Part shown: positions 70-21,165 of the stretch, piece after piece
Layout of the letters: every line of letters starts with the position of its first letter
Position numbering within the stretch: the first letter of the stretch is position 1
Source: a virus
IMG/VR virus record: IMGVR_UViG_3300046516_000543
Coordinates: 1 to 53,224 of that record
DNA: 53,224 nt
Strand: one strand, 5' to 3'
Notes under the pieces: generated by a model
The model's input: the letters and a program-made list of their open reading frames with translations, nothing else
Database searches by the model: none
What the model was told of the DNA's origin: nothing
Position numbers and translations under genes: made by a program

Positions 70-522
70 ATGCAGAGGGGTCGAAAATCCCTGAATGGAA
101 CCCAACTCTCGGTTGTAATGGAACCTTTGGTTCCTGGGGCACAACCTCCAGGACCACCGGAGGAACTTGGCCCGGACGAGGCTATCGAGTGGCGGCTGCT
201 GGTCGGCCGGATGCCGGTCGACTGGTTTCCCCCGGAGACGTGGCCGCTGCTGATCCAGCTTTGCCGCCACATTTGCCAAGCCCGCTGGTTCGGCCAGTGC
301 CTGCAGGAGGTCCGGGCCGGTTGCATGGGCACCCTGCCAATTGCGGAGCTTGAGAACATCGAGCACCTGACCAAGCTGCACCACCTGGAGGGCCGGGCGG
401 TCCAGTCGATCATGCTGAAGCTGCGGCTGACCACATCGGTCAGGATGCCTGACCCGGATTCGGCGCGGCAGCGGCGGGCCGAGATCGCGGACGAACTGCC
501 GTGGCAGACGCCGCCAAACTGA
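70..522 (+). CDS. Terminase small subunit (probable, P27-like)
   Basis: A 150-residue protein placed directly before the large terminase, the usual position of the DNA-recognition subunit. It opens with a basic Arg-Gly-Arg-Lys segment, then a Pro/Gly-rich stretch, then helical segments rich in Leu, Trp and His, as in P27-type small terminases. An AGAAGGA ribosome-binding site lies about 9 bases before the ATG. The end overlaps the large-subunit start by 22 bases, which suggests translational coupling. The role, binding of packaging sites and loading of TerL, is inferred from position and composition; I see no diagnostic HTH motif. Confidence 0.7.
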   Translation: MQRGRKSLNGTQLSVVMEPLVPGAQPPGPPEELGPDEAIEWRLLVGRMPVDWFPPETWPLLIQLCRHICQARWFGQCLQEVRAGCMGTLPIAELENIEHLTKLHHLEGRAVQSIMLKLRLTTSVRMPDPDSARQRRAEIADELPWQTPPN

Positions 523-2051
523 CGCGGCCCGAAACCCGGGCTGAGCGCAACATCCGCTGGTGCGAACGCTACCTCTACCTCCCGGAGGGTAAGTTCGTCG
601 GTAAGCCGTTCCGCATGGCCCCGTTCATGAAGGACGACTTCAAGGCGATCTACGACAACCCGCACGGCACCCGGCGCGCGATCATCTCCAGGGGCCGCAA
701 GAACGCCAAGTCGGTCGAGTGTGCCGCCATCGCGCTGCTGCACCTGTGCGGCTACGAGGCCGAGGACCGGCCGAACTCGACGCTGTACTCGGCGGCGCAG
801 TCGCTCGATCAGGCGGCAATCATCTACGGCCACATGGAAAAAATGGCGCTGATGTCGCCGGTGCTGCGCAAGGTGGTGCGCTGCGTCAGCACCAAGAAGG
901 AAATCTACTGCCCGGGGAAGGGTATTCGCTACAAGGCGCTGACCGCCGAGAAGACCACGGCGTTCGGCCTGTCTCCGGTGCTGACGATCCACGACGAGCT
1001 TGGTCAGGTGCGCGGTCCGAACTATCCGCTGTACGAGGCGATGGAGACGGCGACCGCCGCCCAGGACGATCCGCTGACGCTCGTGATCTCGACGCAGGCA
1101 CCGGCCGACGCCGATCTGCTGTCGCTTCTGATCGACGACGCCAAGACCGGGGCTGACCCGCGCACCATCCTGCGGCTCAACACCGCGTCGATGGACGACG
1201 ACCCGTTCGATGTCGAAACCATTCGCAGAGCGAACCCGGCGTTCGACGTGTTCATGAACAAAAAAGAGGTCATGGACATGGCCGAGGCGGCCCGCCGGTT
1301 GCCGTCGCGCGAGGCCGAATTCCGCAACCTCATTCTCAACCAGCGGGTCGAGGCGTCCAACCCTTTCGTGACGCCATCGCTGTGGAAGTCGTGCGGCGAT
1401 CCGGTGCTGCCGTTCGATGCCACCACGCCGCTGTACGCTGGGCTCGACCTGTCATCGGTCGCTGACCTGACCGCGCTCGTTCTGATCGGCCAGCCACAGC
1501 AACAGCGGGTCTGGCATGTGCATCCGACCTTCTGGTTGCCCAGCGAGGGCCTGTCGGAAAAGTCGCGCGAGGATCGCGTGCCGTATGATCTGTGGGCCAA
1601 GCAGGGGCACCTGGAGACGACGCCGGGCACCTCGATCAGCTACGAGTACGTCGCCAAGCATCTGCGCGATCTGTTCAACCGCTACAACATCCGCAAGGTC
1701 GCGTTCGACCGCTGGAACATGCAGCACCTCAAGCCGTGGCTGGAGCGTGCCGGTTTCAGCGTGATGATGATCGAGGATCGCTTCGTCGAGTTCGGCCAGG
1801 GCACCCAGTCGATGAGCCCGGCGCTGCGCACTTTGGAAGAGACGTTGCGCGGCAAGCAACTTGCCCACGGCAACCATCCGGTGCTGGCGATGTGCGCCGC
1901 CTGCGCGGTGGTCGAGGGTAAAGACGATGCGAATCGGAAACTAAGCAAGAACAAATCGAGCGGCCGGATCGACGGGCTCGTCGCGCTCGCCATGGCGATG
2001 GGCGTGGCGCAGCAGATGCGGCCGGTCAACATCGAGACGCTGATCGCATGA
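501..2051 (+). CDS. terL: Terminase large subunit
   Basis: ATPase-nuclease motor that packages DNA into proheads. GTG start inside the small-subunit gene. The Walker A-like segment runs from S63 to S71 (S-R-G-R-K-N-A-K-S, lysine K70), and Walker B with the catalytic acidic pair is L-T-I-H-D165-E166. The C-terminal half has the RNase H-like nuclease signature Y-A-G-L-D-L-S-S, a later D-R-W-N segment, and a terminal R-I-D-G-L-V-A-L-A aspartate. Its 516 residues are normal for phage TerL of the Terminase_1/HK97-like group. It ends in an ATGA overlap with the next gene. Confidence 0.95.
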   Translation: MADAAKLTRPETRAERNIRWCERYLYLPEGKFVGKPFRMAPFMKDDFKAIYDNPHGTRRAIISRGRKNAKSVECAAIALLHLCGYEAEDRPNSTLYSAAQSLDQAAIIYGHMEKMALMSPVLRKVVRCVSTKKEIYCPGKGIRYKALTAEKTTAFGLSPVLTIHDELGQVRGPNYPLYEAMETATAAQDDPLTLVISTQAPADADLLSLLIDDAKTGADPRTILRLNTASMDDDPFDVETIRRANPAFDVFMNKKEVMDMAEAARRLPSREAEFRNLILNQRVEASNPFVTPSLWKSCGDPVLPFDATTPLYAGLDLSSVADLTALVLIGQPQQQRVWHVHPTFWLPSEGLSEKSREDRVPYDLWAKQGHLETTPGTSISYEYVAKHLRDLFNRYNIRKVAFDRWNMQHLKPWLERAGFSVMMIEDRFVEFGQGTQSMSPALRTLEETLRGKQLAHGNHPVLAMCAACAVVEGKDDANRKLSKNKSSGRIDGLVALAMAMGVAQQMRPVNIETLIA

Positions 2052-5950: not shown

Positions 5951-7990
5951 ATGACGCCAGCGGCGCAGGCTCTGGCGAACGCCGAAGCGCGGCTCGATCT
6001 CAAGCAACGCTTCCGCATCGAGCGGTCGCGGGCCAAGCGGCTGCTGGCGCGCGCCGACGCCCACACCGAGTGGATGAACGAATGCGTCCCGCAAATGCTG
6101 GACTACGGCAAGGACCAGGATGTCGCCGTCGCCGCCTGTCTGAATATGTGGCGCGACGATTGGGAGGATGAGCATCCCGATGGTGCTGTCGATCCAGGCC
6201 CGCCGCCGCCTGGGTCGGAAAGCAGCAGTTCGGAAAAGCGATTGCAGATCGCGCGCCAACGGCTCGACAAGTTCAACCCGAACCATGAGCCCGGCGGCAG
6301 TCCAACCGGCGGCCAATTTGCGCCAGCGGATGGCGGCGCAGGCGGCGGCAGCGACAAGCCGGACGACGCCGCGCATCTCGATCCGAAGGTGATCCAGGTC
6401 GGCGGCGATGCCTGGAACAAGGCGACGGCGGTGCGGCTGGAGCGCGAGTACCAGACCGCCAAGCCCGCGCTCGATGCGCTGACGGCTAAGTATGCCGGGC
6501 TCGACACCGTGCCGGACATCGCAGCGCCGGGCGAAGACGACGAGGAGGACGGACCGCCGCCCACGCCGGAATCCTGGGACGAGATGGACGACACCAAGCA
6601 ATCGGAGGCGTTCGAAAAATACAAGGACAGCCAACTACCGTCCTACATCGAGAGCGAACAGCAGAGTTGGTACGACAACGGTCAGGCGCTCGACGAGGCC
6701 AAGGTCATCTTGGCCGACGACACCGACAAGGACGACTGGCTGCAGGACGCTATCAAAGAACACCTCGACGACAGCGACACCCGCTTTCCGTTGACCGCCG
6801 AACAGTTGAACAACGTCATCACCGTCGAATACCAGAGCGGTTATGACGGCAAGGGCGATGTCACCATCGACTTTCTCGACAAGTCGATTGCCGGGTATGT
6901 CGCCGAAAACACTGGCGCGAGTGATCTGCAGCAGACCTTGCCCGGCATCGAGCCGGAAGACCTGTCGGCGAAGCTGACCGACAAGATGCGCGAGGAACTG
7001 ACCGAAGCCGTCGAAGCAGCGTTCGACGAAAAAGCCGACAAGCTGCAGAGCGATCTGCCAGCGCCAGACTATCTGGCCGAGAGCGCCGCCGAGTTCATCG
7101 ACGAAGACTGGAATCACAACATGGAGGACAAGCAGAAATTCGAGTGGACAAAAAACAACACCGATCTGCTTGATGATGCCGATGTCGCGACGCCTGTGGG
7201 CGAGGTCACCGGCCTGCCGCAGAAATACGATCCGCTGAACGAGACGACCGGCGGCGATTACAAGCGCACTCAGCAGTTGGCGCGGGCGCTGTCGATCCAG
7301 CGCAGCAAGGAAGTGCTGGCGGCGCGCAATCTGCCGGACCCAGGAACAGCCACCCTGAAGCTGATCGACACCAAGTTGTGGGCGGCCTGGAAGTCTAGCT
7401 CGACCAGTCCGAACGGCCAGTTGCTGCAAGTCGCCAGCGCCGACGAGCTTGGCGGCAGGCTTAATCCGAACACCGGCCGTGGCGGCGCGGTCGTGATCAA
7501 TCGCGACAATATGATCGAGTACGCCAACAGCGAGTTCAAGGACATCGGCGGCTATGTCGGCGTCAAGGCCTACGTCCGCGCCAAGTGGGAAACCACGCAG
7601 TATCTGCTCGACAAGGCGGGCATCGCCGAACTGAAACTCTATCGCGGCATCGTGCTCGAAAAGGACAAGCTCGATCAGGCGGAACGCGAGAAGGCGGCCA
7701 GACTGAAGCAGATGGTCGCCGACCACGCCAAGGTGCCGAACCTCACAGTGGTGCGCAACGGCGCAGCCTCGACCACCACCAATCCGAACATCGCCAACGG
7801 CTGGGGGCAAAGCCAAGGCCGTGTCGTGCTGCGCGCGCAAGTGCCACGCACGGCGGCGCTGTCGATCCCGGCCTACGGCATCAACGTGCAGAGCGAGCAG
7901 GAGGTGGTCGTCACCGGCACCGCCTGGAAGGGCTGGGACGCTTGGCTCGGCAAGGCTCCGAACTTCGATCACGTCGCGATGGCGGCTTGA
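5951..7990 (+). CDS. Putative virion-packaged ADP-ribosyltransferase
   Basis: A 679-residue protein. Residues 38-71 hold a Cys/Trp module (M42-x2-C45 ... C63-x3-W67) also found at the start of the capsid protease in this genome. Residues 108-128 form a Gly/Pro linker (S-P-T-G-G-Q-F). The centre is acidic and helical. The C-terminal 120 residues carry the R-S-E signature of ADP-ribosyltransferases: L-Y564-R565-G, S607-T-T-T, and E649-Q-E651-V-V-V. The ExE form is typical of arginine-modifying enzymes. The position in the head module suggests packaging and injection, as for T4 Alt. The C-terminal fold is a motif-based call; the target and injection are inference. Confidence 0.75.
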   Translation: MTPAAQALANAEARLDLKQRFRIERSRAKRLLARADAHTEWMNECVPQMLDYGKDQDVAVAACLNMWRDDWEDEHPDGAVDPGPPPPGSESSSSEKRLQIARQRLDKFNPNHEPGGSPTGGQFAPADGGAGGGSDKPDDAAHLDPKVIQVGGDAWNKATAVRLEREYQTAKPALDALTAKYAGLDTVPDIAAPGEDDEEDGPPPTPESWDEMDDTKQSEAFEKYKDSQLPSYIESEQQSWYDNGQALDEAKVILADDTDKDDWLQDAIKEHLDDSDTRFPLTAEQLNNVITVEYQSGYDGKGDVTIDFLDKSIAGYVAENTGASDLQQTLPGIEPEDLSAKLTDKMREELTEAVEAAFDEKADKLQSDLPAPDYLAESAAEFIDEDWNHNMEDKQKFEWTKNNTDLLDDADVATPVGEVTGLPQKYDPLNETTGGDYKRTQQLARALSIQRSKEVLAARNLPDPGTATLKLIDTKLWAAWKSSSTSPNGQLLQVASADELGGRLNPNTGRGGAVVINRDNMIEYANSEFKDIGGYVGVKAYVRAKWETTQYLLDKAGIAELKLYRGIVLEKDKLDQAEREKAARLKQMVADHAKVPNLTVVRNGAASTTTNPNIANGWGQSQGRVVLRAQVPRTAALSIPAYGINVQSEQEVVVTGTAWKGWDAWLGKAPNFDHVAMAA

Positions 7991-7992
7991 TC

Positions 7993-9126
7993 ATGGCAAA
8001 CAGCAAGCCCATCGAGGTCGACATTCTCGACATGGAGATGAGCCAGGACTTGCCGTACTGGCTCGATCCGGTCGAACGCTACAAGGGCACGCACGACAAC
8101 GCGCGGCGGCAGAAGCACGAGGCGCACATCGCCGAACTGCAGGCCCAGCAGAAAGCGGAAAACAAAAAGAAGGCTTGGCAGCGGGCACGCGATGAAGCGC
8201 GGCGGCGACTAAGGGGCTTCGATCCATCAGAGCCGCGCGACGAAGCTGGCAGATGGACGGACGGCGGCGGCAGCGACGACGATAGCGGCAGCACCGGATC
8301 GTCATCGCCGCACGCCAAAGACCCGACATCGGCGTCATCGTTGCTGCGTATCAATCCCAAGGTCACGGTCAAAGACGTGATCGCCAGGGTGCCAGGGGCA
8401 GACAAGCAAGTCGCCGAAGCACAAGCCAAAGTGGACGCGGGCACGCCGACCGATAAGCCGGTCAGCCAAGGCGGCTACAAATTGCCGAACGGAAAATGGA
8501 CACCGGAGCGCGCGGCGTTGCATGACCGGATCAGGGCCTCGATCCTCACACCTGAAGTGGTCGCTGCCGCAACACCGAAGCCGGGCGAGCAGCCGGTGCT
8601 GCACATCCTCGGCGGACGCGGCGGCTCCGGGAAGAGTTGGTTCACCGGCCCGAAGGGCACGTTCGACAAGAGCACGTCGCTCTATCTGAACAACGACGAC
8701 ATCAAGGAGCGGCTGGGTTGGAAGGGCTGGAACGCCGGTCTATTGCACGAGGAGTCGAGCACGGTCGGCTCCGAGATCGAAACCGCTGCACGCAAGGCTG
8801 GGCTCAACGTCATCATCGATGCCACGCTGAAAAGCGACACCTCGACCTCTGATCGCATCGCGGCGTACAAGGCGGCGGGCTACCGGGTGGAAGGCCACTA
8901 TATGTACGCCAGCCCGGAGAAAGCCGCCGAACGCGCGCTGCAGCGTTTTGTCAGAGGCAACGCAGAGAACGGCAAGGGGCGGTTTGTCGATCCAGCATAT
9001 TCGATGGCCTCGACGACCAACGAGCACAACTTCGATACCAATCGCAAGAACATGGATGCGTGGGAAGTTTACGACAACAACGTCGATGGCCGCGAGCCGG
9101 TCTTCCACGCGCGCGGCGGCAACTGA
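7993..9126 (+). CDS. Putative virion-associated zeta-toxin-like kinase
   Basis: A 377-residue protein. A basic helical N-terminus (residues 30-75) is followed by F76-D-P-S-E-P-R-D-E-A-G-R-W-T, the kind of Arg-Asp/Gly-Arg-Trp linker seen in many phage head proteins (recalled). The C-terminal domain has a Walker A loop G207-G-R-G-G-S-G-K214-S and a zeta-like strand I-I-D276-A-T-L-K-S. A following V-E-G-H-Y-M-Y-A-S-P-E-K-A-A-E-R-A-L-Q-R segment matches zeta toxins, which phosphorylate UDP-N-acetylglucosamine. No epsilon-type antitoxin gene is adjacent, unlike in true toxin-antitoxin pairs. It starts two bases after the ART gene. The substrate is unknown; virion packaging is inferred. Confidence 0.75.
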   Translation: MANSKPIEVDILDMEMSQDLPYWLDPVERYKGTHDNARRQKHEAHIAELQAQQKAENKKKAWQRARDEARRRLRGFDPSEPRDEAGRWTDGGGSDDDSGSTGSSSPHAKDPTSASSLLRINPKVTVKDVIARVPGADKQVAEAQAKVDAGTPTDKPVSQGGYKLPNGKWTPERAALHDRIRASILTPEVVAAATPKPGEQPVLHILGGRGGSGKSWFTGPKGTFDKSTSLYLNNDDIKERLGWKGWNAGLLHEESSTVGSEIETAARKAGLNVIIDATLKSDTSTSDRIAAYKAAGYRVEGHYMYASPEKAAERALQRFVRGNAENGKGRFVDPAYSMASTTNEHNFDTNRKNMDAWEVYDNNVDGREPVFHARGGN

Positions 9127-9279
9127 TTATTTCTTCGGCTTGGCCTTATCCTGGGCGTCCTTGATCAGCTTGCTGGCGTGATCGACGCCGGGGCCGGTAG
9201 CCTCCCGAAACGGCAGATCGTCATCGAAATGCTCTGGCGGAATCTCATACTTCGGTTTCTGTTTCGGCTCAGTCGTCAT
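9127..9279 (-). CDS. Small hypothetical protein with an internal acidic LPF motif
   Basis: A 50-residue ORF with a Lys/Pro-rich N-terminus, the motif H-F-D-D-D-L-P-F at residues 17-24 and a Lys-rich C-terminal helix. The stop abuts the stop of the convergent kinase gene. The F-D-D-D-L-P-F motif looks like the SSB acidic tip but is internal. It is the last gene of the second minus cluster. Function unknown. Confidence 0.6.
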   Translation of the reverse strand: MTTEPKQKPKYEIPPEHFDDDLPFREATGPGVDHASKLIKDAQDKAKPKK

Positions 9280-9284
9280 GGTAC

Positions 9285-9485
9285 TCACTCGATCTTTTGA
9301 ATGTCCTCCAGCTTAATCTTTTTCTTCAGCAAAAGCTGCAGCAATGCAGCAGCCGTGAACGGGATGCGGCCCTCGTCGAGCGCCCAGCGCCGCGACGTGC
9401 GGGGTCCGACCTTGAACAATTCGCCAAGCCCAAGCTGGCTCAGATTCAGTTTGTCCAGGGCGGCACGATATTGTTTGGCGTTCAT
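9285..9485 (-). CDS. Small helix-turn-helix DNA-binding protein
   Basis: A 66-residue protein with L-N-L-S-Q-L-G-L-G-E-L-F-K-V-G-P-R-T-S-R-R-W, a Cro/XRE-type helix-turn-helix core with a recognition helix ending in R-R-W, followed by a helical Leu/Lys tail. This compact form is common in alphaproteobacterial phages. It could be one of the regulators of the seven-copy operator; nothing here proves that. Confidence 0.7.
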   Translation of the reverse strand: MNAKQYRAALDKLNLSQLGLGELFKVGPRTSRRWALDEGRIPFTAAALLQLLLKKKIKLEDIQKIE

Positions 9486-9709
9486 GCGTCTTCCACTTTT
9501 CTGAGCCGGTTGTCGAGGTGGCCAAGGACATCCTTGACCAGGACGAGATCGCGCTCGATCCGCAACGCGATGTTGCCAAGCACCGTGATGCTGGCCTTCG
9601 TATCGGTGATGTCAGCACGGATCGCGGTGATGTCAGCACGGATCGCGGTCTGCTCGACCTGGATACGTTCCAGCCGGTTGGCGATGAATTCGAGGGTTAC
9701 GTCAGCCAT
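9482..9709 (-). CDS. Coiled-coil hypothetical protein
   Basis: A 75-residue protein predicted to be one long coiled coil. It contains a heptad-like repeat T-A-I-R-A-D-I occurring twice in tandem, encoded by a near-perfect 18-base direct repeat around 9610-9650. It overlaps the HTH gene by four bases. The architecture resembles small phage coiled-coil scaffolds; function unknown. Confidence 0.65.
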   Translation of the reverse strand: MADVTLEFIANRLERIQVEQTAIRADITAIRADITDTKASITVLGNIALRIERDLVLVKDVLGHLDNRLRKVEDA

Positions 9710-9722
9710 GGTGATTCCTTAA

Positions 9723-9908
9723 CTAGGCCATTTTGTCCGAATTTTCAAGCACCGGCTGCGCGTGGTCGAGCGTGATCCGCATCAGGTTGGCGAGATCGCG
9801 CCGTTGGTCGGCAGTCATGTGGGTGCCGTCGCCGAACAGCGCCTTGCAGATCGCCTGCAGCTTGGTGAAGTCGTGCGGCTCGAAAAGGTAGCCGATGGGT
9901 TGGCTCAT
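9723..9908 (-). CDS. Hypothetical protein
   Basis: A 61-residue helical protein (A-I-C-K-A-L-F-G-D-G, D-Q-R-R-D-L-A-N-L-M), starting in an ATGA overlap with the superinfection-immunity gene. No family recognised. Confidence 0.65.
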   Translation of the reverse strand: MSQPIGYLFEPHDFTKLQAICKALFGDGTHMTADQRRDLANLMRITLDHAQPVLENSDKMA

Positions 9909-10192
9909 GCGAGCGTGCCATCTGGGTTGCGCCGCTTGATCGCGGTATTCGCCCAGACCAGCGCGCCAATCCAACCGATGAGTGTCCAGCCCAGGCCAAT
10001 GTTCAGCGTCAAGATCGCTAATGTTTGATGGTGGCCACGCCGCCACGCGACGATGGATGGCAAAGCGTAGAAAGCGGCCATCACGATGAGCATGGTCAGG
10101 GCGCTTTCGAAATCTTTACCGCTTGCTGCTTCGGCGAATGCAGGGGTGGCCGCCAAGCTGGCGATGATCGTCAAGCAAAACAGTTTCTTCAT
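9905..10192 (-). CDS. Superinfection immunity membrane protein (Imm-like)
   Basis: A 95-residue protein. The N-terminal 20 residues form a signal peptide (hydrophobic core, A-F-A-E cleavage region). Two transmembrane helices follow, with the family pattern L-P-S-I-V-A-W-R-R-G-H-H and L-N-I-G-L-G-W-T-L-I-G-W-I-G-A-L-V-W-A of the Imm_superinfect family, named for T4 Imm, which blocks DNA entry of related phages. Expected in the inner membrane. It belongs to the operon read from promoter copy 2. Family call is strong; the phage it excludes is unknown. Confidence 0.85.
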   Translation of the reverse strand: MKKLFCLTIIASLAATPAFAEAASGKDFESALTMLIVMAAFYALPSIVAWRRGHHQTLAILTLNIGLGWTLIGWIGALVWANTAIKRRNPDGTLA

Positions 10193-10195
10193 TTT

Positions 10196-10720
10196 TCAGG
10201 CGACTCCTTTTTTGCGGTTGTTCGTTTCGGTGATCGCGGCCTCGATCTGGCTACGGTAGTAGTTGCGGCCTTCGGTGATCGTCATCCACCGCCATTCCGG
10301 GTTGGACCGGCGCGGCCCGATGCGATGCACGGCGAAGCTCAGCTTCAGCGCATTGGCCAGCGCCATGAACTTGTCGCCCGGCTCGCGCGCCTCGTCCTTC
10401 TGGATGCGGGCATTGACCCGCTTGATCGCTTTGAGCATCCGCTGGAGCTTGCGCTCGCTCATCGAATAGACGTTGCGGTACTCGACATCGTTGCCGATGA
10501 AGCTCGACTCGGTGCTGTCGCAGGCGAAGCCGTACATGCCAAGTCCGTCGAGGCAGAGATCGATCAGATGCTTCGGCGTGCCTTCGCCGTAGAAACTTTC
10601 GCCGTCGCTGGAGCAGCCCAGCGGCATATCGCGGCCGGGCTCGCGGCGCACCACATGCACTTCGACGTAGTCGGTGCCGCTGCTGTTGGTGCGGTCGATC
10701 ATTAAGCCGTATTCGTTCAT
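10196..10720 (-). CDS. Hypothetical protein
   Basis: A 174-residue protein coupled by an ATGA overlap to the upstream LPD29 gene. It has a beta-rich first half and a basic helical segment (S-E-R-K-L-Q-R-M-L-K-A-I-K-R-V-N-A-R). A Trp/Tyr-rich end (E-W-R-W-M-T-I-T-E-G-R-N-Y-Y-R) follows. The pairing with an LPD29 protein suggests a shared early function. No family recognised. Confidence 0.65.
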   Translation of the reverse strand: MNEYGLMIDRTNSSGTDYVEVHVVRREPGRDMPLGCSSDGESFYGEGTPKHLIDLCLDGLGMYGFACDSTESSFIGNDVEYRNVYSMSERKLQRMLKAIKRVNARIQKDEAREPGDKFMALANALKLSFAVHRIGPRRSNPEWRWMTITEGRNYYRSQIEAAITETNNRKKGVA

Positions 10721-11280
10721 GCGTAGTCCTCCTTCTTCATTTCGCGGCCGATCAGGTTGGCGAGGTAGTCGCCAGCGTTCGGCACCTTGATGTCCCAGCC
10801 GACGAAAGCCTCGTCGCCGCTGATCTTGATTTCTGGCACCTCCATGCCGTAGTCGGCGCAGACCTTCTTCACCATCTCGGTGTAGGCGGGCACCGACCAT
10901 TTCTTGGTGCAGAACACGTAGTCGGCACCGAACCGCACCCGCTTGGCTTCTGGCGACGGCGCGGGTTCGTCATAGGACGAGTAGACGCCCTTGGAGCCTT
11001 CGGTGCCGGGCGACGACGCGGCGCTGACCGAACCGTCCGGCATCAGCCATTCGTCGGTCGAGTAAGCCATGTCGATCATGCCGTCGAACCCGCCGCTGCA
11101 GTAGCCGCCAGCGACCGCCTTGACTGCCTTCTCGGCCGGGCCATCGGTCCAGCCCACATCGATGGACGCGCCACCGGAATAGACACTGGAGCGCACCGAG
11201 AACTTGACGCCTGGGAACGACTTTTTCAGCGCGGCCCGGATCAACTTCGCCGTCGCGGCGCATGAGAGATATTCAGCCAT
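10717..11280 (-). CDS. LPD29-domain protein
   Basis: A 187-residue protein whose N-terminal 70 residues match the LPD29 pattern: A-K-L-I-R-A-A-L-K-K-S-F-P-G-V-K-F-S-V-R-S, Y-S-G-G-A-S-I-D-V-G-W-T-D-G-P, and F-D-G-M-I-D-M. LPD domains were named from large polyvalent proteins of phages and conjugative elements. The biochemical role is not known. AGGAGG lies 9 bases before the ATG. The domain call is from memory of the consensus. Confidence 0.75.
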   Translation of the reverse strand: MAEYLSCAATAKLIRAALKKSFPGVKFSVRSSVYSGGASIDVGWTDGPAEKAVKAVAGGYCSGGFDGMIDMAYSTDEWLMPDGSVSAASSPGTEGSKGVYSSYDEPAPSPEAKRVRFGADYVFCTKKWSVPAYTEMVKKVCADYGMEVPEIKISGDEAFVGWDIKVPNAGDYLANLIGREMKKEDYA

Positions 11281-11294
11281 TGGTTTTTGTCCTC

Positions 11295-11738
11295 CTATTT
11301 CGTTTCGGCAAAAGCCTTGTGGGCCTCGGCGAGGCCAACATTCAGCGGATCGCCAGGATTGCGGGCGCTGTCGTAGGCGACCTTGGCGGCGACCCACTTG
11401 TTCATGATGGCGCGGCCGACTTCCGGCACCGCTGCGCCGAACTTGTCCTGCCAAGCCTTGGCTTCCGCGCCGCTGCTGTACTGGCTTAGGCCGGACCAAG
11501 TGCAGTGGCCGTCCTCGTTGAGGTACATCGCGCCGCCGAATTCGGAGTAGGTCGAGGCCTTCGGCTTGTTCCAGACGTTGCCCCGCTTGGGGTTGGTGGT
11601 CTGCGAGACGAACCGAAAACCTTTCTTCGGCTTGAACTCCAGCCAGTAGCGGATCGAGCAGCGCAGCCGGAACCCGTATGGATAGTCGGCGACCACGTAG
11701 GCCGTTTCCGGGGAGACGTGGCCAAACAAAAGCGTCAT
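11295..11738 (-). CDS. Conserved phage hypothetical protein
   Basis: A 147-residue protein with D-Y-P-Y-G-F-R-L-R-C-S-I-R-Y-W-L-E and G-F-R-F-V-S-Q-T-T-N-P-K, then N-K-P-K-A-S-T-Y, a pattern seen in many phage hypotheticals of unknown function. It is the first gene after promoter copy 2. The ATG at 11738 is chosen over a TTG at 11741. The leader contains an AGGAAAGGAA purine run. Confidence 0.7.
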   Translation of the reverse strand: MTLLFGHVSPETAYVVADYPYGFRLRCSIRYWLEFKPKKGFRFVSQTTNPKRGNVWNKPKASTYSEFGGAMYLNEDGHCTWSGLSQYSSGAEAKAWQDKFGAAVPEVGRAIMNKWVAAKVAYDSARNPGDPLNVGLAEAHKAFAETK

Positions 11739-11771
11739 CAAATCGTTTCCTTTCCTGTTTCCTACAGACTA

Positions 11772-11800
11772 TAGATAGGTCGTTTTGGCCTATACGTCAA
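11772..11800 (-). promoter_or_regulatory. Regulon promoter/operator copy 2
   Basis: Minus-strand TTGACG (11795-11800), 17-bp spacer, -10 TATCTA (11772-11777). The left arm TATAGGCC is intact; the right arm is GACCTATC. It drives the 11738-to-9127 operon. Confidence 0.8.
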
Positions 11801-11809
11801 GAAGACGTA

Positions 11810-12334
11810 TCAAGTATTTTTGGCGAGGTTGGCTGTGGCTCTAGCCAGCAGCGTCGGGTGGCCGTGGCCCAGGACCGCGAGCTTTTTGGTCATTTCGCTC
11901 AGGTATCTCTTGGCGAAGGCCGGATTGGCCGCGACGGCGAGCCCGATGTTGCTGGAGTTGTCGACCATGTCGGCGAGCTTGATCGAGGCCCCTGTGGGGC
12001 TCGTGGCGGCGACGTGGGCGACGTAGGCGGCAAACCGCAGCGGTCTATTGCCCGGCACCTTTTCGATCTTCGGGTCGGTCACCTCGGCGACCAAGGCGGC
12101 GACGGCGGGACCGAACTCGGCCTCGATCATCGCGGCGGTGATCTCGGTGTCCTCGACCACGTCATGGAGGTAGGCGGCGGCGATCACCTCGGCCGGGAAG
12201 CCGAGATTGGCGAGCGTCGCAGCAACACGCTTGGGATGCTCGATGTAGGGCTCGCCCGTGTACTTTCTGAAGACCCCGGCGTGCGCCTTGGTGGCGAACG
12301 CGAGGGCCTTCTCGACAAGGGTGGCGGGAAACAC
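11810..12334 (-). CDS. HD-domain phosphohydrolase, MESH1/RelA-SpoT hydrolase-like
   Basis: A 174-residue protein from a GTG start with AAAGGAG 8 bases upstream. It carries the HD-hydrolase signature of MESH1 and SpoT: R23-K-Y-T-G-E-P-Y-I-E-H33-P, L-H57-D58-V-V-E61-D62-T, and K119-L-A-D122-M-V-D-N. These residues bind the manganese ion and remove pyrophosphate from (p)ppGpp in the characterised enzymes. It lacks synthetase, TGS and ACT domains. It sits alone between promoter copies 3 and 2, so it appears to be separately regulated. Probable role: cleaving host alarmones during infection; related nucleotide substrates are possible. Confidence 0.85.
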   Translation of the reverse strand: MFPATLVEKALAFATKAHAGVFRKYTGEPYIEHPKRVAATLANLGFPAEVIAAAYLHDVVEDTEITAAMIEAEFGPAVAALVAEVTDPKIEKVPGNRPLRFAAYVAHVAATSPTGASIKLADMVDNSSNIGLAVAANPAFAKRYLSEMTKKLAVLGHGHPTLLARATANLAKNT

Positions 12335-12358
12335 TTTTTGGCTCCTTTCTACACTCCA

Positions 12359-12387
12359 TATATAGGCCGAAACGGCCTATACGTCAA
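12359..12387 (-). promoter_or_regulatory. Regulon promoter/operator copy 3
   Basis: Minus-strand TTGACG (12382-12387), 17-bp spacer, TATATA (12359-12364). The palindrome is perfect here (TATAGGCC-GTTTC-GGCCTATA). It drives the HD-hydrolase gene 25 bases downstream. Confidence 0.87.
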
Positions 12388-12407
12388 TGGGTCATAAGTA
12401 CCTCAAT

Positions 12408-12608
12408 TCATGAGGCTTTTAGCGGTCGGCAGGCGTAGCCGACATCGCGCGGGGCGATGTTGTGTTTCTTGGCGTAGGACATGATGCAGAACCAAGTGGC
12501 CTTCGGGCCGCTGGCGCATATCCACTCTTCGGACGGCACCCGGCCAAGGTTGTCGTTCAGGACAACCCGCTGGCTGTTCTCCGGGGTGATGGCGGCAAAC
12601 GATGTCAT
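12408..12608 (-). CDS. Hypothetical protein
   Basis: A 66-residue protein, ATGA-coupled to the upstream gene. It includes E-W-I-C-A-S-G-P-K-A-T-W-F-C-I-M-S-Y-A and ends in Y-A-C-R-P-L. The three cysteines do not form a clear zinc site. No family recognised. Confidence 0.6.
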   Translation of the reverse strand: MTSFAAITPENSQRVVLNDNLGRVPSEEWICASGPKATWFCIMSYAKKHNIAPRDVGYACRPLKAS

Positions 12609-13225
12609 GCGATCTCCTCGATGCGCGCGCCTTCCAGTTGCTTGGCGGTGATCCGGCACAGCATCCCGTTGTCGGCGCGGAACACGGTGCTGGGAGTCTT
12701 GTTGCCGCGAACTCTGGCGCGGTCGACGGTGAAGGCCTGCTGCATGATGCCGCCGAACGATAAGGCCTCCGGTAGCGTCACCTTGGTGCCGGGCTTCAGC
12801 TTCCGCTTCAGCGCCTTGATGGCGGCCACGCGCGCGCTGCGGGCGCGGTATTCGGTGGCAGAGCGCAGGCTGGAGTATTCGGGCTGCGGGCCAATCGGAT
12901 CGCGCAATGCAGAGCACTGGGCGATGATCGACAGCGGTGCTTCCAGGCCATACGGCCCCATCGTCTCGGTCATGTCCTTGTAGCCGAAGTTGTACTGGCC
13001 TCGTGACGACTTGATCGCGATCACGGCCAGCGTGCGGATGGTGCCATCAGCATCGGGCACGTAGACATCGCTGTCGGGCTCGTGAACCTTGACGACCATG
13101 AACACCGCTTCGCGGGTCGCGGTCGCGGCCACCAACTTCTCGGCGCAGAACTTCTCGCCGAATTCGCGCTTGATCGTATCGACGGCCTTCATGCCGACCG
13201 GCTTGTGAAAAAACGTCCAGCCCAT
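12605..13225 (-). CDS. DUF6927-like protein
   Basis: A 206-residue protein beginning M-G-W-T-F-F, with F-G-Y-K-D-M-T-E-T-M-G-P-Y in the middle and K-L-K-P-G-T-K-V-T-L later. This order matches the DUF6927 group found in phages and plasmids as I remember it. Function unknown. It is coupled by TGATG to the upstream gene and belongs to the operon from promoter copy 4. Confidence 0.7.
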   Translation of the reverse strand: MGWTFFHKPVGMKAVDTIKREFGEKFCAEKLVAATATREAVFMVVKVHEPDSDVYVPDADGTIRTLAVIAIKSSRGQYNFGYKDMTETMGPYGLEAPLSIIAQCSALRDPIGPQPEYSSLRSATEYRARSARVAAIKALKRKLKPGTKVTLPEALSFGGIMQQAFTVDRARVRGNKTPSTVFRADNGMLCRITAKQLEGARIEEIA

Positions 13226-13416
13226 CAGATGCTCTCCTTCACTCCAGGGAACGCGGCGGCAACTGCCCGCAGTTCCGGCCCAGATTTTCCTTCCGCCACG
13301 GCGGCTTCCATCACCTTGTAGAGCGCCGGGATTGACATCATCGGGATTTGCAGTCGGTAGATCGCGCTCTGAATTTTCGCGGCGGTCAGCTTCTGCTCTT
13401 TCGTCTGTCTAGCCAT
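13225..13416 (-). CDS. Hypothetical protein
   Basis: A 63-residue, mostly helical protein with a basic N-terminus (A-R-Q-T-K-E-Q-K). GGAAAG precedes the ATG. No family recognised. Confidence 0.65.
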   Translation of the reverse strand: MARQTKEQKLTAAKIQSAIYRLQIPMMSIPALYKVMEAAVAEGKSGPELRAVAAAFPGVKESI

Positions 13417-13447
13417 TCGAGTTTTCCTTTCCGTTGGTTGATCCGGC

Positions 13448-13900
13448 TTAGTCCATCCGGGAATTCGAGTAGGCCTTCACGCCCAGTTCCTCGACCAGCA
13501 CTCTGGCCATCGCGGCGGCGCAGGCCTCTTTCCGTTCCATCGACTGTCCGAACGCGGACACCCAGATGTCGACGCCGCCGTAGTAGGCCTTGCGCGCCAA
13601 TTTATTTTTGACGAGCCACTTGGCGAACGAGCAGTTGCCGGGGCTCACGTTGACCCAGGCGAAACCGCAGACGCCCTCGGGCTCGACCCACTGCTGCACG
13701 GCGGGCGAATTGTCATTCAGCGGATTGGCGTGCTGCGTCACCACCATGGTCCGGGGCTTCGCGGCCTCACCAGCGGCCTTGCCTGCTGCGGCGGCCTTGT
13801 TATAGGCGGCCTCAAACTTGCCGTACCGCGCCTTCCGTTCGACCGATTCTGCCGCGATCTTTTCGCGGAGACTGCCGTACTGGGCTGTTTTGTCCAACAT
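13448..13900 (-). CDS. Hypothetical protein
   Basis: A 150-residue protein. The N-terminal third is an Ala/Lys-rich helix (Y-N-K-A-A-A-A-G-K-A-A-G-E-A-A). The rest is mixed, with G-V-C-G-F-A-W-V-N-V-S-P-G-N-C-S-F-A-K-W, a segment seen in phage hypotheticals (recalled). It is the first gene after promoter copy 4, with AGGAG 8 bases upstream. Function unknown. Confidence 0.68.
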   Translation of the reverse strand: MLDKTAQYGSLREKIAAESVERKARYGKFEAAYNKAAAAGKAAGEAAKPRTMVVTQHANPLNDNSPAVQQWVEPEGVCGFAWVNVSPGNCSFAKWLVKNKLARKAYYGGVDIWVSAFGQSMERKEACAAAMARVLVEELGVKAYSNSRMD

Positions 13901-13928
13901 GAAACTTTCTCCTGTTTCCTACCCAACG

Positions 13929-13957
13929 TATATAGGTCGAAACGGCCTATACGTCAA
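13929..13957 (-). promoter_or_regulatory. Regulon promoter/operator copy 4
   Basis: Minus-strand TTGACG (13952-13957), 17-bp spacer, TATATA (13929-13934). The TGA in the -35 is also the stop codon of the upstream gene (13954-14154). It drives the 13900-to-12408 operon. Confidence 0.87.
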
Positions 13958-14154
13958 GGGGTCGTGGTCAAGGAAAACGGGACCGTGGGGGTGACGTAGA
14001 CCCAGTGGCTGTCCTCGTTGTTCCAGACGCCCCAGCCGCCCTTGCTTCGACGTTCCATCGCCGCATAGAGATCGCGGCCACAGGGGCGCTTGGCTTGGTT
14101 CTGGTCGACCCAGCGATGGGCCGCGAGAGCGTCAACGACATATCCTTCGGTCAT
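13954..14154 (-). CDS. Hypothetical protein
   Basis: A 66-residue protein starting in an ATGA overlap. It has Q-A-K-R-P-C-G-R-D-L-Y-A-A-M-E-R and W-G-V-W-N-N-E-D-S-H-W-V-Y-V. The last codons (T-T-P-stop) lie inside promoter copy 4. No family recognised. Confidence 0.65.
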   Translation of the reverse strand: MTEGYVVDALAAHRWVDQNQAKRPCGRDLYAAMERRSKGGWGVWNNEDSHWVYVTPTVPFSLTTTP

Positions 14155-14312
14155 CGGGTTTTCCTCGCGCAATACTCGTCGTAGGCGGCGCGCAGCTTGT
14201 CGTAGCTGACGCGGAACATTCGGGCGGCACGGCCGCAGGCATCCGGGAACTCTTCGCCGTCAACGACTATCGCGTTGATCAGCCAATTCAGGGCGTTATC
14301 GGTACGGGTCAT
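14151..14312 (-). CDS. Small hypothetical protein
   Basis: A 53-residue ORF (M-T-R-T-D-N-A-L-N-W-L ... Y-C-A-R-K-T-R) with a start overlapping the upstream gene by 17 bases and an ATGA overlap downstream. The R-M-F-R-V-S-Y-D-K-L-R-A-A-Y segment resembles a DNA-contacting helix; no family recognised. Confidence 0.6.
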   Translation of the reverse strand: MTRTDNALNWLINAIVVDGEEFPDACGRAARMFRVSYDKLRAAYDEYCARKTR

Positions 14313-14670: not shown

Positions 14671-14700
14671 CGCTAAGTGCTTGTAAACATGGAGGTTTCC

Positions 14701-16818
14701 ATGACGATCGCGGCGTTGAAGCGTAAGGAATGCACGCCAGAAGACGATGAGTCTGAAGAGGACTTCATGGATCGCTGCACCAGCGAGACGGGAGACGAAG
14801 ACGCTTGCTCGCTCGCCTGGGACGAGCGCCGCGCGCGCGACGTGCGCCACCGCACCCATGTCTCGCCTGCCAGCGGCTTCGAATTCATTCTGTCGGACGC
14901 GACGCCGGATCGCATGGGCGACGTGATCGTCGCCGAAGGCTGGGACTTAAAGAACTTCCTGAAGAACCCCATCGCGCTGTTCAATCACAACAGCAACTTC
15001 CCCATCGGCAAGTGGAAAAATCTGCGCGTCGTGAAAGGTGAACTGCGTGGTCATCTGGAGATGGCCCCGGCTGGCACCTCCGAACGCATCGACGAAATCC
15101 GCAGGCTGGTCGAGGCCGACATTCTCCGCGCCACCAGCGTCGGCTTCCGTCCCATCGAATCCGAACCGCGCGACAAGAACAACAAGATGAGCGGTGAACT
15201 GTTTCGTAAATCCGAGTTGGTCGAGACATCGCTGGTCGCGGTGCCCGCCAACCCGAATGCGTTGGCAGTCGCAAAGTCACTGCACATTTCCCGCGACACG
15301 GTCGCAATGGTCTTTGCCGGGCAAGGCAACAAGAAAGATCAGGTCGACAAGCACGTCGCGGCTTCAACGGCGGGCAAGCCGAAACGTCTCGTACAAAAGA
15401 GTACGAATATGTCTCCCCTCACCAAACGGATCGAGGACACCCAGCAAAGGCTGGTGAGCCTCAAGGATCAACTGACTCAGCATCTCGAAACCGTCGACGA
15501 CGAGAACGTCACCGACGCCGACCTGACGATGACTCAGGAACTCAACAAGAAAATTGCCGACCAGGAGAAGGCGCTGGAGGCCCTGAAGGACGCCGAGACG
15601 AAGCTCGCCAAGAAGACCGGCGACGACGATGGTGTCACTGGCAGCAGCGGCAGCGGCACCCACATCGTTGTCAACAGTGGCAACGGCAGGCGGCCCGCTG
15701 GGCTCGCAGCGAAGAAACTGCAGCCGATTGAGTTCCTGGTCCGCGCTGGCACTGTTCGCGCCATCGCTCGCTCGATGAACCTCTCTGTCGATGACGCTCG
15801 CCAGAAAATCTATGGCGACGACGAGACGACCAAGGTGATCTGCGATCTCACCTTGAAGGCTGCGGTGTCCCCGGCAATCACTACGGTTGGCGGTTGGGCT
15901 GCAGAGTTGGTGCAGCAGATCGTCGCCGATCTGATGCCGACGCTGCTGCCGTCCGCTGTGTACCCGACGCTGTCGGGCATGGGGCTGAAGCTGTCCTTCG
16001 GGCGCAACGGCCGGATCATCATCCCGACCCGCAACGTGACGCCCAGCATCGCTGGCTCGTTCGTCGGTGAAGGTCAGCCGATCCCGGTGCGTATCGCGGG
16101 CTTCACCAGCCAGACGCTGGTGCCGAAGAAAATGGCGGTCATCACGACCTGGACCCGTGAGATGGACGAGCACAGCGTGCCCGCCATCGAAGGTCTGCTG
16201 CGTGACGCCATCCAGCAAGACACGGCGATCTCCATCGACACGGTGCTGCTCGACGCCAACGCGGCGACCAGCATCCGTCCGGCCGGACTTCGCAACGGCG
16301 TTGCTGGCCTCACGCCTACGGCGGCGGGCGGCTTCAATGCTCTCGTCGGCGATCTGAAGCAACTGACCGGAGCCATCCTGACGGCCACGAACGGAAATAT
16401 CCGCAACATGGTCTTCATCATGAACCCGCAGCAGGCTCTGAGCATTTCGTTCATCCAGCCTCCGGTCCCGGGCGGGTTGTTCCCGTTCGCGGCGGAAATC
16501 AATGCCGGTCGCCTCAACGGGCATCCGGTGATCCAGTCCGGCACCGTGCCGCTTGGCACCGTGCTGTGTCTCGACGCGGCCGATTTCGTTTCGATCAGTG
16601 GCGACACGCCGAGGTTCGAGATCAGCGATCAGGCCACGTTGCACATGGAAGACACAGCGCCGTTGCAGTTGGCGGCGGCAGGCACTCCCGCTGTCGTGGC
16701 GGCACCAGCGCAGTCGATGTTCCAGACCGACTCGCTCGCGCTTCGCCTGATCCTCCCGATGAACTGGGTCGTGCGGCGCGCAGGCGTCGTGTCCTGGGTC
16801 GCGGGCGTCACTTGGTAG
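14701..16818 (+). CDS. Fused prohead protease and major capsid protein (HK97 type)
   Basis: A 705-residue protein with GGAGG 5 bases before the ATG. Residues 23-40 hold the Cys/Trp module M23-x2-C26 ... C36-x3-W40. Residues 50-225 are an HK97-family U35 serine protease, with catalytic His in L-F-N-H96-N-S and Ser in A-T-S146-V-G-F. A Gln/Lys-rich coiled coil (about 240-315) matches the scaffolding delta region. Residues 340-705 are the HK97-fold capsid protein (G-G-W-A-A-E-L-V, F-V-G-E-G-Q-P-I-P-V). An internal ATG at 15409 could give separate capsid or scaffold protein, but its ribosome-binding site is weak. Protease and capsid are usually separate genes. Confidence 0.92.
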   Translation: MTIAALKRKECTPEDDESEEDFMDRCTSETGDEDACSLAWDERRARDVRHRTHVSPASGFEFILSDATPDRMGDVIVAEGWDLKNFLKNPIALFNHNSNFPIGKWKNLRVVKGELRGHLEMAPAGTSERIDEIRRLVEADILRATSVGFRPIESEPRDKNNKMSGELFRKSELVETSLVAVPANPNALAVAKSLHISRDTVAMVFAGQGNKKDQVDKHVAASTAGKPKRLVQKSTNMSPLTKRIEDTQQRLVSLKDQLTQHLETVDDENVTDADLTMTQELNKKIADQEKALEALKDAETKLAKKTGDDDGVTGSSGSGTHIVVNSGNGRRPAGLAAKKLQPIEFLVRAGTVRAIARSMNLSVDDARQKIYGDDETTKVICDLTLKAAVSPAITTVGGWAAELVQQIVADLMPTLLPSAVYPTLSGMGLKLSFGRNGRIIIPTRNVTPSIAGSFVGEGQPIPVRIAGFTSQTLVPKKMAVITTWTREMDEHSVPAIEGLLRDAIQQDTAISIDTVLLDANAATSIRPAGLRNGVAGLTPTAAGGFNALVGDLKQLTGAILTATNGNIRNMVFIMNPQQALSISFIQPPVPGGLFPFAAEINAGRLNGHPVIQSGTVPLGTVLCLDAADFVSISGDTPRFEISDQATLHMEDTAPLQLAAAGTPAVVAAPAQSMFQTDSLALRLILPMNWVVRRAGVVSWVAGVTW

Positions 16819-18374: not shown

Positions 18375-19838
18375 GTGGCCAACTTCCTGTCGCGCAACTT
18401 GTCGCGAATCTTTAGCCCTCGCGTCAAAGGCGAGGGCGGGGTTCGTCCTGGTCCGTACCATCTGCCGGTGACCGGCGGCTGGTTGCCTGACGGTGCGCCA
18501 TGGAACTGGTGGCAAACCGGCATGGACCCCTATAGCGGCGGCAACGGCGCGATGGTCGAGGCCTGCATCGCAGCCTATGCGCAAACCACTGCGATGTGCC
18601 CCGGTGACCACTGGCGGCTCAACGATGACGGCGGTCGCGAGCGGGTTACCAACTCGGCGCTATCGCGCATCCTGCGCGCGCCGAATTCCTATCAGTCGCC
18701 GTCCGACTTCATGCTGAATCTGACGCGCTCGCTTTACATGGAGGGCAATGCCTACGCGCTGGCGCTGCGCAACGACCGCTACGAGATCGACGAACTGCAC
18801 TTGATGGACCCGAATTTGAGCCGTCCGCACGTCGCGACGACCGGCGACATTTTCTATTCGCTGGCTGGCAACGATGTGGTCGAGCGGGTGATCAACCAGG
18901 AGCTTATGGTGCCGCAGCGCGACGTGCTGCACGTCCGGCTGCATGTCGTCAGGAATCGCATTCCGTTTCCGCTGGTTGGCGAGACGCCGATTGCAGCGGC
19001 GATGCAGGACATCGCGACATCGAACGCGATCACCCAGCAGCAGCTTCAGTTCTATCTGAACCAAGCGCGGCCTTCGCAAGTGCTTGGTACCGATCTGGTG
19101 CTCGACAAGGATCAGGTCCAGTTCATCCGCGACCGCTGGAACGAGCAGAGCAAGGGTCTGCAGGCGGGCGGCACGCCGATCTTGACCGCAGGCCTGAAGC
19201 CGTACCCGCTGTCTTCGGACACCAAGGACGCCGAAATCGCCGAGATGATGAAGCTGACCGAACAGCGCATCGCTTTGGCGTTCCGCATCCCGCTGCAGAT
19301 TTTCGGCATCGGCGGCACGCCGTTCGGTTCGACCGAGTTGCTGATGCAGTCCTGGATCGCTAGCGGGCTCGGCTTTGCGCTCAACCACATCGAGGAGGCA
19401 TTCGGCCTGACGTTCCAGCTTGAAGGCCAGCCCGACGAGTACGTCGAGTTCGACACCAAGGCGCTGCTGCGGTCGGCGTTCAAGGACAGAATTGCTGGCC
19501 TCGCGCAGGCGGTTCAGGGCGGCATCTTCTCGCCGAACGAAGCCCGCGCCGAAGAGAGTCTGAAGAAGGCCAAGTTCGGCGACGAGCCGCGCGTTCAGCA
19601 GCAAGTCGTCCCGCTGTCGGCGGCGGGAGCAATTCCAGCGGCACCGGGAGCACCAGGAGCGCCACCGGCACTGCCGGGAGCCGGACCGCCAGGAGCACGA
19701 CCGGCGCTGCCTGCACCGGCCAACGATCAACCAGCAAAGCCACCGACAACGGCGAAGGATTACGACGATGTCGTTGCAACCGAACGAAGACACATCCTCG
19801 CACGCGCCGCTTACCACGATGCACGAAGCAACGCTTGA
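18375..19838 (+). CDS. Portal protein (HK97 family)
   Basis: A 487-residue protein from a GTG start. It forms the dodecameric vertex through which DNA enters and leaves. The HK97 portal pattern is seen in [23 protein letters not shown], and the clip/stem region [15 protein letters not shown] Pro/Ala/Gly-rich C-terminal tail (about 415-465) precedes a short basic end. The 3' end overlaps the collagen-like gene by 71 bases. The portal lies downstream of the capsid gene, opposite to the usual portal-protease-capsid order. Confidence 0.92.
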
Positions 19839-21165
19839 CGCGCTGCGCGATGCACTGGGTCAGGTCGTTTCCGACCACCGCAAGCAGTGGGATCGCGAGC
19901 GTGCGCTGATCGAGGCACAGGCGCGCACCGTCATTGCGGAGCTACGGGCCGAGACTGTCGAGCTTCGGTCGCTGCTGGAGAAAAACTTCAACGAACGGAT
20001 GGCCGCACTGCGTGACGGTGCGCCCGGTGCGCCGGGCACTGTCGGCGATCAGGGCGAGCGTGGTCCACAGGGCGAGCCCGGTCCGCAAGGCGAACAAGGC
20101 GAACGCGGACCGCCGGGCGAGAACGGTCAGCATGGCCAGCATGGAGCGCGCGGCGAGAAGGGTGCGACCGGCGAGCGCGGTGAAAGAGGCGAGCAGGGTC
20201 TGACGGTCAAGGGCGATCCTGGTGATCCTGGCGAGCGTGGTGAGCCCGGATTGCCGGGTGAGCGCGGCGAGCACGGTCTGCCGGGTGAACGTGGCGAGCG
20301 TGGTGAAAAAGGCGAGCGCGGCGAGCCTGGGCTGACCGTCAAGGGTGATCCTGGAGTGGCTGGCGAGCGCGGCCCGGCCGGTGAGCCCGGTGGACGCGGC
20401 GATCCAGGTCCACGCGGCGAGAACGGCCAGCACGGCGCACGCGGCGAGAAAGGTATGCCCGGCGAGCGTGGCGAGAAGGGAGATCGAGGCGAGCGCGGGG
20501 AGCCCGGTCTGACCATCAAGGGCGATCCCGGCGAGCACGGTGAGCAGGGCGAGCGCGGCGAACCCGGAGCGCCCGGAGCGCCCGGTCCGCGTGGCGAGCT
20601 TGGTGTGCGCGGCGAGCCCGGCATTCCTGGGGAGCGTGGCGAGCGTGGCCCAATGGGAACGCTGCCGCGTGTCAAAGTCTGGGGGCCGGGCGTGCATTAT
20701 GAAGGTGATGTCGTCGTTGCAGACGGTGCCACCTATCAGGCCGACTGCGACACCGCCGAGGTACCGGGCGAAGGCAAGGATTGGATATGCCTCGCCCGAT
20801 CTGGCCGCGATGGCGCAACGCCGAAGGTGCGCGGCCTGTTCAGTGCAACCGAGAAATATCGGGCGCTGAACATAGTGGCGCTGAACGGCGGCAGCTTCAT
20901 CGCCCGCAAGGACGATCCTGGCCCATGCCCCGGCGACGGCTGGCAACTGATCGCGTCGCAAGGCAAGGCCGGACCGAAGGGCGAGCGCGGCTTGCGCGGT
21001 GAGCTTGGCCAGCGCGGCGAACGTGGCGAGCCAGCGCCGCTGATCGTTCGGTGGAAGCTCGACCAGTCTGCTTACGCAGCGGTGCCGGTGCTGTCGGACG
21101 GCAGCGAAGGTCCGACGCTGGAGCTTCGGTCGCTGTTCGAACAATTCGAGATGGAGATCAGGTGA
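19768..21165 (+). CDS. Collagen-like fibre with carbohydrate-binding-like modules
   Basis: A 465-residue protein starting inside the portal gene (GAAGGA upstream). Residues 18-85 form a coiled coil. Residues 88-305 are Gly-X-Y triplets, interrupted at regular intervals by L-T-V-K-G-D-P-G or L-T-I-K-G-D-P-G (three times). Two modules of the W/Y-G-D-V-V-x-G-x-x-Y type follow ([13 protein letters not shown] and [16 protein letters not shown]), like CBM5/12-like domains. A short second collagen stretch precedes the end. A trimeric fibre, probably on the head or neck, is inferred from neighbours. Confidence 0.82.

Follow-up and report, generated by a model that had tools for sequence, protein, structure and literature searches.

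Capsid-polyprotein addresses and a GRW tag precede a predicted ADP-ribosyltransferase and a zeta-type kinase in the head module of a soil phage

We analysed IMG/VR virus record IMGVR_UViG_3300046516_000543, a stretch of 53,224 nucleotides (the window) from a contractile-tailed phage of soil origin, and in particular two adjacent genes in its head module. The first encodes a 679-residue protein that very probably carries an ADP-ribosyltransferase (ART) at its C-terminus, and the second a 377-residue protein that by its sequence ends in a zeta-type kinase (Table 1). In each protein the enzyme is preceded by an address, a segment homologous to part of the polyprotein in which the S78 prohead protease is fused to the major capsid protein, and by a short tag (the GRW tag, of canonical pattern FDPxxPRDxxGRWT and present as a variant in the ART protein), which elsewhere stands ahead of enzymes from many unrelated families. 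The best explanation of this arrangement, judged from genomic context, is that both enzymes are probably carried inside the head and injected with the DNA.

The original prediction had placed an ART at the C-terminus of the 679-residue protein on the strength of R565, S607-T-T and E649-Q-E651, and all of these residues are present in the open reading frame (ORF) at 5951-7990 exactly as described. Taken alone, the protein had no significant match in Pfam, PHROG or PDB sequences and no tblastn match among the named phages of a phage collection, and its 18-sequence profile likewise retrieved nothing real from PDB sequences. Successive scans of viral contigs found relatives at 19 loci and later at 78, from which 57 ART-region sequences were aligned; neighbourhood counts given below refer to 66 non-redundant loci. 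All 57 homologues keep R565, E649 and E651, and conservation at S607 reaches at least 90%, so the motifs are not a product of chance. The catalytic R, S-T-[ST] and ExE follow one another in the order of the R-S-E class. Since an ExE motif usually accompanies arginine targets, the enzyme is probably an arginine-directed ART of the R-S-ExE class. The acidic middle domain of the protein is conserved along with the ART.

Profile and structure comparisons agree with this assignment. When the ART profile was compared by hhalign with six tag-borne modules, from a cluster whose first member matches PF03496 (ADPrib_exo_Tox), the probability was 93.8% (E 1.7e-7 for a single comparison) and the register paired YRG with YRG, STT with STS and ExE with ExE; two unrelated control profiles gave 0.2%. 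An AlphaFold2 (AF2) model of the ART domain alone, built with the 57 sequences, reached a predicted local distance difference test score (pLDDT) of 90.4 and a predicted template modelling score of 0.89, overcoming the poor full-length model. In a Foldseek search of the PDB the top eight matches of this model were all ARTs (cholera toxin A chains, HopU1 and Vis; best probability 0.99), so that ARTs lead the structural matches, albeit weakly. Against a viral library the top match was a phage head morphogenesis protein (E 5e-10), and the BFVD matches include named phage ARTs at E values of 6e-3 or above. One of 18 family members matched dinitrogenase reductase ART (DRAT, PF07357; E 4.8e-4), and no DRAT was found among 150 genomes for comparison.

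The Walker A loop and zeta-like kinase that had been read from the second protein were upheld as well. Zeta_toxin (PF06414) matches with 75.2 bits against a curated cut-off of 22.3, and a profile of six members matches the solved zeta toxin 1gvn (8e-11), PezT (3e-8) and AvrRxo1 (6e-5). The Walker A loop GGRGGSGKS occupies residues 207-215. K214 in that loop, D235, R314 and R318 are invariant in the six kinase sequences (alignment A6), presumably in the Walker A and catalytic Asp/Arg roles of zeta kinases. UDP-N-acetylglucosamine is the substrate of zeta and PezT, while AvrRxo1, which shares their fold, acts as a kinase on NAD but not on UDP-N-acetylglucosamine (PMC5491322). Because the window protein alone also aligns with AvrRxo1, including upstream of the Walker loop (marginally, E 0.03), its substrate may be either UDP-N-acetylglucosamine or NAD. 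As had been predicted, no antitoxin accompanies the kinase: the next gene downstream lies on the opposite strand, no same-strand gene directly follows, and the ten ORFs of the opposite-strand block match neither epsilon antitoxin nor other antitoxin Pfam families.

Both proteins begin with segments that belong to capsid-protease polyproteins. Address 1, in the ART protein, is homologous to a cysteine-containing segment that lies immediately before the S78 protease. A profile built from 20 S78 ORFs alone found the window ART protein at E 6.5e-11 and the zeta protein of locus L105 at 7.6e-9, with no matches among shuffled ORFs. With all seeds included, a profile matched 55 of 59 S78 ORFs. Among tag-bearing ORFs it matched 10 of 189, and among the remainder 6 of 14,393, these six including the window ART protein and apparent S78 fragments. 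A degenerate version of address 1 is also present at the N-terminus of the window's own S78 protease-capsid protein. Address 2, in the kinase protein, is a separate polyprotein segment that differs from address 1 and shows homology to the N-terminal part of S78 protease-capsid polyproteins; the first 90 residues of the kinase protein are 53% identical to the L012 polyprotein over 86 residues (E 2.7e-24). The header VDILxMEL...LPxWLDP opens the S78-capsid polyprotein of L011, L012 and L016 as well as the kinase protein of the window, and forms a stand-alone protein of about 80 residues directly after the ART in L022, L030 and L031. One type of kinase thus follows different leaders: address 2 in the window, address 1 in L105 and a collagen-like protein beside the portal in L143. 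In the last case (L143:373-2028) a counterpart of the window's collagen-like protein is joined to the zeta kinase through the tag. The window's collagen-like gene (19768-21165) directly follows the portal gene.

The kinase protein carries the canonical GRW tag and the ART protein a variant, at the position where its homologues in L014, L017 and L019 have the canonical form. A DNA pattern for the tag retrieved at least 120 stretches from IMG/VR viral contigs, and the fetched loci contained 158 protein contexts in which the modules following the tag formed 75 sequence clusters. Pfam searches of 150 such modules identified ADPrib_exo_Tox (10), DUF7178 (9), Zeta (6), topoisomerase IB (4), ART-PolyVal (4), 2H (2), Acb1 (1) and nuclease toxins. 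Among 150 ORFs of these loci that lack the tag, the 25 families listed include none of the ART or zeta families, each of which is thus represented no more than once. The difference between tagged and untagged ORFs gave p 0.005 for ADPrib_exo_Tox (10 versus 1) and p 0.0005 for ARTs and zeta summed (20 versus at most 4), both rough values given that members may be related. As a 30-residue query, probably too short or filtered out, the tag had no match among named phages, and none of five tag peptides occurred in the literature searched. The DUF7178 module follows the tag in L030:8273-11740 and also in L022, L031, L082, L085, L089 and L091. Topoisomerase IB, found after the tag in four modules (the loci of alignment A3), is an unusual candidate for a head-packaged enzyme.

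The P, R, G and W positions of the tag are constant, but most of them were preset by the search pattern, and their constancy is not independent evidence. Positions left free are skewed too, with Q or E at position 5 in 157 of 157 cases and G three residues past the core in 118 of 157. Third codon positions show ordinary usage, which indicates selection on the tag as protein rather than as DNA and rules out a DNA recombination repeat. We therefore think it rather unlikely that the tag is a mere flexible linker or recombination seam devoid of its own function. Its placement at module boundaries and the glycine-rich, low-complexity sequence that follows would suit such a role, which would be compatible with packaging, but the skew at unforced positions and the normal third positions speak against it.

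Association with the virion is indicated by fusions in relatives. The ART's fusion partner is Phage_portal_3 in 7 of the 66 loci, and a lambda-type portal in L186. In L094, L105, L143 and L003, zeta kinases again lie beside genes for the terminase large subunit (TerL), the portal or S78. Enzyme domains of the conflict type are thus found fused to, or placed among, portal-terminase head genes, as in polyvalent and other packaged effectors. Together with the segments common to capsid-protease polyproteins and the location between terminase and capsid genes, this context favours the head packing that had been proposed for both proteins. In L190:8321-13573 a single polypeptide of 1751 residues combines the ART, the tag and the anti-CBASS domain Acb1 (E 1.7e-34), which ties the ART family to counter-defence.

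In the mechanism we favour, the addresses would co-assemble both proteins with the procapsid, and the enzymes would later be freed by the prohead protease or by simple release, with proteolysis at the tag as one possible route. They would then pass into the next host along with the DNA, where the ART may modify some host protein and the zeta-type kinase may phosphorylate a nucleotide sugar or an NAD-like metabolite, so as to blunt host defence or take over metabolism. The data also suggest a plug-in scheme for exchangeable head enzymes. In its strongest form, which we put forward only tentatively and hold to be somewhat doubtful, S78-polyprotein addresses and the GRW tag would make up a transferable head-loading code in many temperate and soil phages, accepting ARTs, zeta kinases, topoisomerases, anti-CBASS proteins and others, with the tag as a sorting or processing site.

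Several observations weigh against the favoured explanation. All loci are environmental contigs or prophages known from sequence alone. The PDB matches of the ART model are weak (best E 1.2e-3, with low TM-scores), and the full-length model of the 679-residue protein, built with 19 sequences, had a pLDDT of 67 and no PDB match. Some of the capsid fusions are stop-to-stop ORFs, perhaps with internal starts, and L091 and L082 contain an apparent out-of-frame read-through stretch; a single long polyprotein is doubtful in these two loci, which are likely out-of-frame joins. The capsid fusion of L011 is a plain read-through in one frame. Of 30 tag-bearing contigs of at least 25 kb, only 11 gave an S78 match, so the tag is not tied to this family. 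A general role as S78 cleavage site is consequently unsupported, and cleavage by a different protease, or a function purely in sorting, is just as likely as release by S78.

Other accounts of the two proteins appear less probable than packaging. The enzymes could act late in the producing cell and stay outside the virion, their place in the head module providing only late expression. Their late, co-directional position would fit roles against late-acting defences or in steering metabolism before lysis, most ART proteins have no fusion to a structural protein, and it has been suggested that head-linked ARTs might counter immunity aimed at the packaging apparatus (PMC9503650). We nonetheless judge this unlikely, as ART fusions to two portal families and addresses from the capsid polyprotein are hard to explain without virion association. 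It is still less probable that the proteins are mainly structural or scaffolding components, with enzyme folds that are vestigial or that serve assembly by modifying capsid proteins or phage DNA. The strong conservation of the ART, often the constant part while other modules vary, and the large conserved stretches outside its motifs would be accounted for in this way; the catalytic residues kept in both enzymes and the joining of the tag to many unrelated enzyme families would not.

Zeta toxins are classic toxins of toxin-antitoxin systems, and the kinase might be such a prophage module, or a superinfection module beside a moron block, instead of a virion effector. Besides this pedigree, a superinfection immunity-like protein is encoded in the downstream block on the opposite strand. 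This reading seems very improbable to us in view of the missing epsilon-like partner, the fusion of zeta to an address and tag, and its recurrence beside head genes in the four loci named above. Packaging in the head thus continues to be the reading we prefer.

The original prediction had also called the ART and the zeta kinase an effector pair, to be sought as a conserved neighbourhood in other alphaproteobacterial phages, and conservation as a pair did not hold up. Zeta accompanies the ART in only 2 of the 66 loci (the window and L019), and none was found above the Pfam cut-off in 50 ART contigs searched whole, so a conserved ART-zeta pair was rejected. In relatives the slot after the ART is taken by the stand-alone protein of about 80 residues, by a capsid polyprotein or by other proteins. 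The order that recurs is TerL, ART, a protein with the header of the window kinase, S78-capsid and portal. That header adjoins the ART in 23 loci and is therefore not an obligate partner; an S78 capsid gene lies downstream in 24, a portal gene downstream in 20 and TerL upstream in 17. The recurring unit is the design of address, tag and enzyme rather than the pair. In L011, L013, L014, L016 and L163 a second capsid-like gene without protease lies between TerL and the ART, apparently giving each of these phages two major-capsid paralogues.

Within the window, the expected virion-gene neighbours were found on the same strand: TerS and TerL, and then the S78 protease-capsid fusion and the portal. 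The predicted gap of two nucleotides between the genes was confirmed, with TGA at 7988-7990, ATG at 7993 and the end of the second gene at 9126; the ORF list begins the kinase gene at GTG 7585, which over-extends it, and ATG 7993 was taken. A minus-strand block (9129-14172) separates the kinase gene from the capsid gene. Close relatives of the window ART are carried by prophages in Bradyrhizobium, and the host is therefore probably an alphaproteobacterium.

Table 1. Positions of the two enzyme genes, their parts and other features of the window
Feature	Position	Strand	Basis
TerS	70-522		
Terminase large subunit (TerL), start of head module	501..2051	+	PHROG 9, E 3.9e-114
679-residue protein: N-terminal address, variant tag, acidic middle domain, C-terminal predicted ART	5951..7990	+	
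Address 1, residues 37-69 (AHTEWMNECVPQML...AACLNMWRD)	6059..6157	+	Profile of S78 ORFs, E 6.5e-11
Variant tag FNPNHEPGGSPTGGQFA, residues 108-124	6272..6322	+	
Acidic, mostly helical middle domain (VGGDxWNKxTAxRLExEY...)	6377..7180	+	Alignment A1, model secondary structure
Predicted ART domain region, residues 413-679	7187..7987	+	AF2 model, Foldseek, hhalign
R565 of Y-R-G motif	7643..7645	+	Invariant in 57 sequences
S607-T-T motif	7769..7777	+	S607 conserved at least 90% in 57, invariant in first 19
E649-Q-E651 (ExE) motif	7895..7903	+	Both E invariant in 57 sequences
377-residue protein: address, canonical tag, zeta-type kinase	7993..9126	+	
Address 2, residues 1-72 (VDIL-MEM...LPYWLDP)	7993..8208	+	Homology to S78 polyprotein N-terminus
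Canonical tag FDPSEPRDEAGRWT, residues 76-89, then DGGGS	8218..8259	+	
Zeta-toxin-type kinase domain, residues 196-349	8578..9039	+	PF06414, E 6e-21
Superinfection immunity-like protein	9908-10192	-	PF14373, E 3e-18
LPD29 protein	10720-11499	-	
HD-domain protein	11813-12334	-	
DUF6927 protein	12608-13225	-	
Sigma-70-like promoters	~14.65 kb	-	
S78 prohead protease fused to major capsid protein	14677..16818	+	PHROG 617, E 1.6e-79; S78 and capsid matches
Portal protein	18375..19838	+	PHROG 12, E 2.7e-71
Tail sheath	23570-25129		

The best-known analogues are the MuF polymorphic toxins of temperate phages, 14% of which are putative ARTs and which adjoin portal or terminase genes (PMC5576092). Like the window proteins they combine a constant, head-linked N-terminus with an exchangeable toxin C-terminus. 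In contrast, the window proteins have S78-linked addresses and a short tag as their constant parts and are not followed by a small immunity gene in the same orientation, and Pfam finds neither MuF domain (PF04233, PF06152) in either protein. Zeta-like kinases fused to MuF, along with 2H and InPase domains, are described in phages in the work on polyvalent proteins, where packaging and injection are proposed (PMC5512222). Those proteins of phages and conjugative elements resemble the window in being large multidomain head-gene products with ARTs and zeta-like kinases. In the passages considered, processing is attributed to zincin peptidases within the polypeptide, and neither the GRW tag nor S78-polyprotein addresses are described (PMC5512222). 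Unlike the ARTs of polyvalent proteins, the window ART region matches no Pfam family reliably.

Phage ARTs that adjoin or are fused with portal, MuF and head genes are enriched in contractile-tailed phages and presumed to be packaged and injected (PMC9503650); the window ART resembles them in lying among head genes and in the portal fusions of its relatives, although the partners here are Phage_portal_3 and lambda-type portals. The original prediction had cited T4 Alt as a packaged, injected ADP-ribosyltransferase; no sequence relation of the window ART to it was detected, since neither tblastn against the phage collection nor PHROG gave a match, and Foldseek similarity to a T4-like ART was weak (E 0.05). 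The window kinase has the P-loop kinase fold, Walker A loop and catalytic Asp in common with zeta/PezT kinases and AvrRxo1, but it lacks an antitoxin and is fused to an address and tag. A protein of cyanophage PSS2 with a zeta domain, annotated as minor head protein (GQ334450), is 31.5% identical over the kinase region; the match is confined to residues 166-321 and leaves address and tag unmatched.

Packaged phage ARTs and MuF-zeta fusions have thus been published before, and it is the capsid-protease addresses common to the enzymes, together with the tag, that appear to be new.

How phages choose the proteins that they package in the head is understood in few systems, such as that of the T4 capsid targeting sequences. 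A portable address and tag ahead of unrelated enzymes, if true, would provide a sequence rule for spotting injected phage enzymes across metagenomes and a means of directing proteins into the heads of phages in laboratory strains. It would also supply a list of candidates for early-acting counter-defence, several of which belong to no known family.

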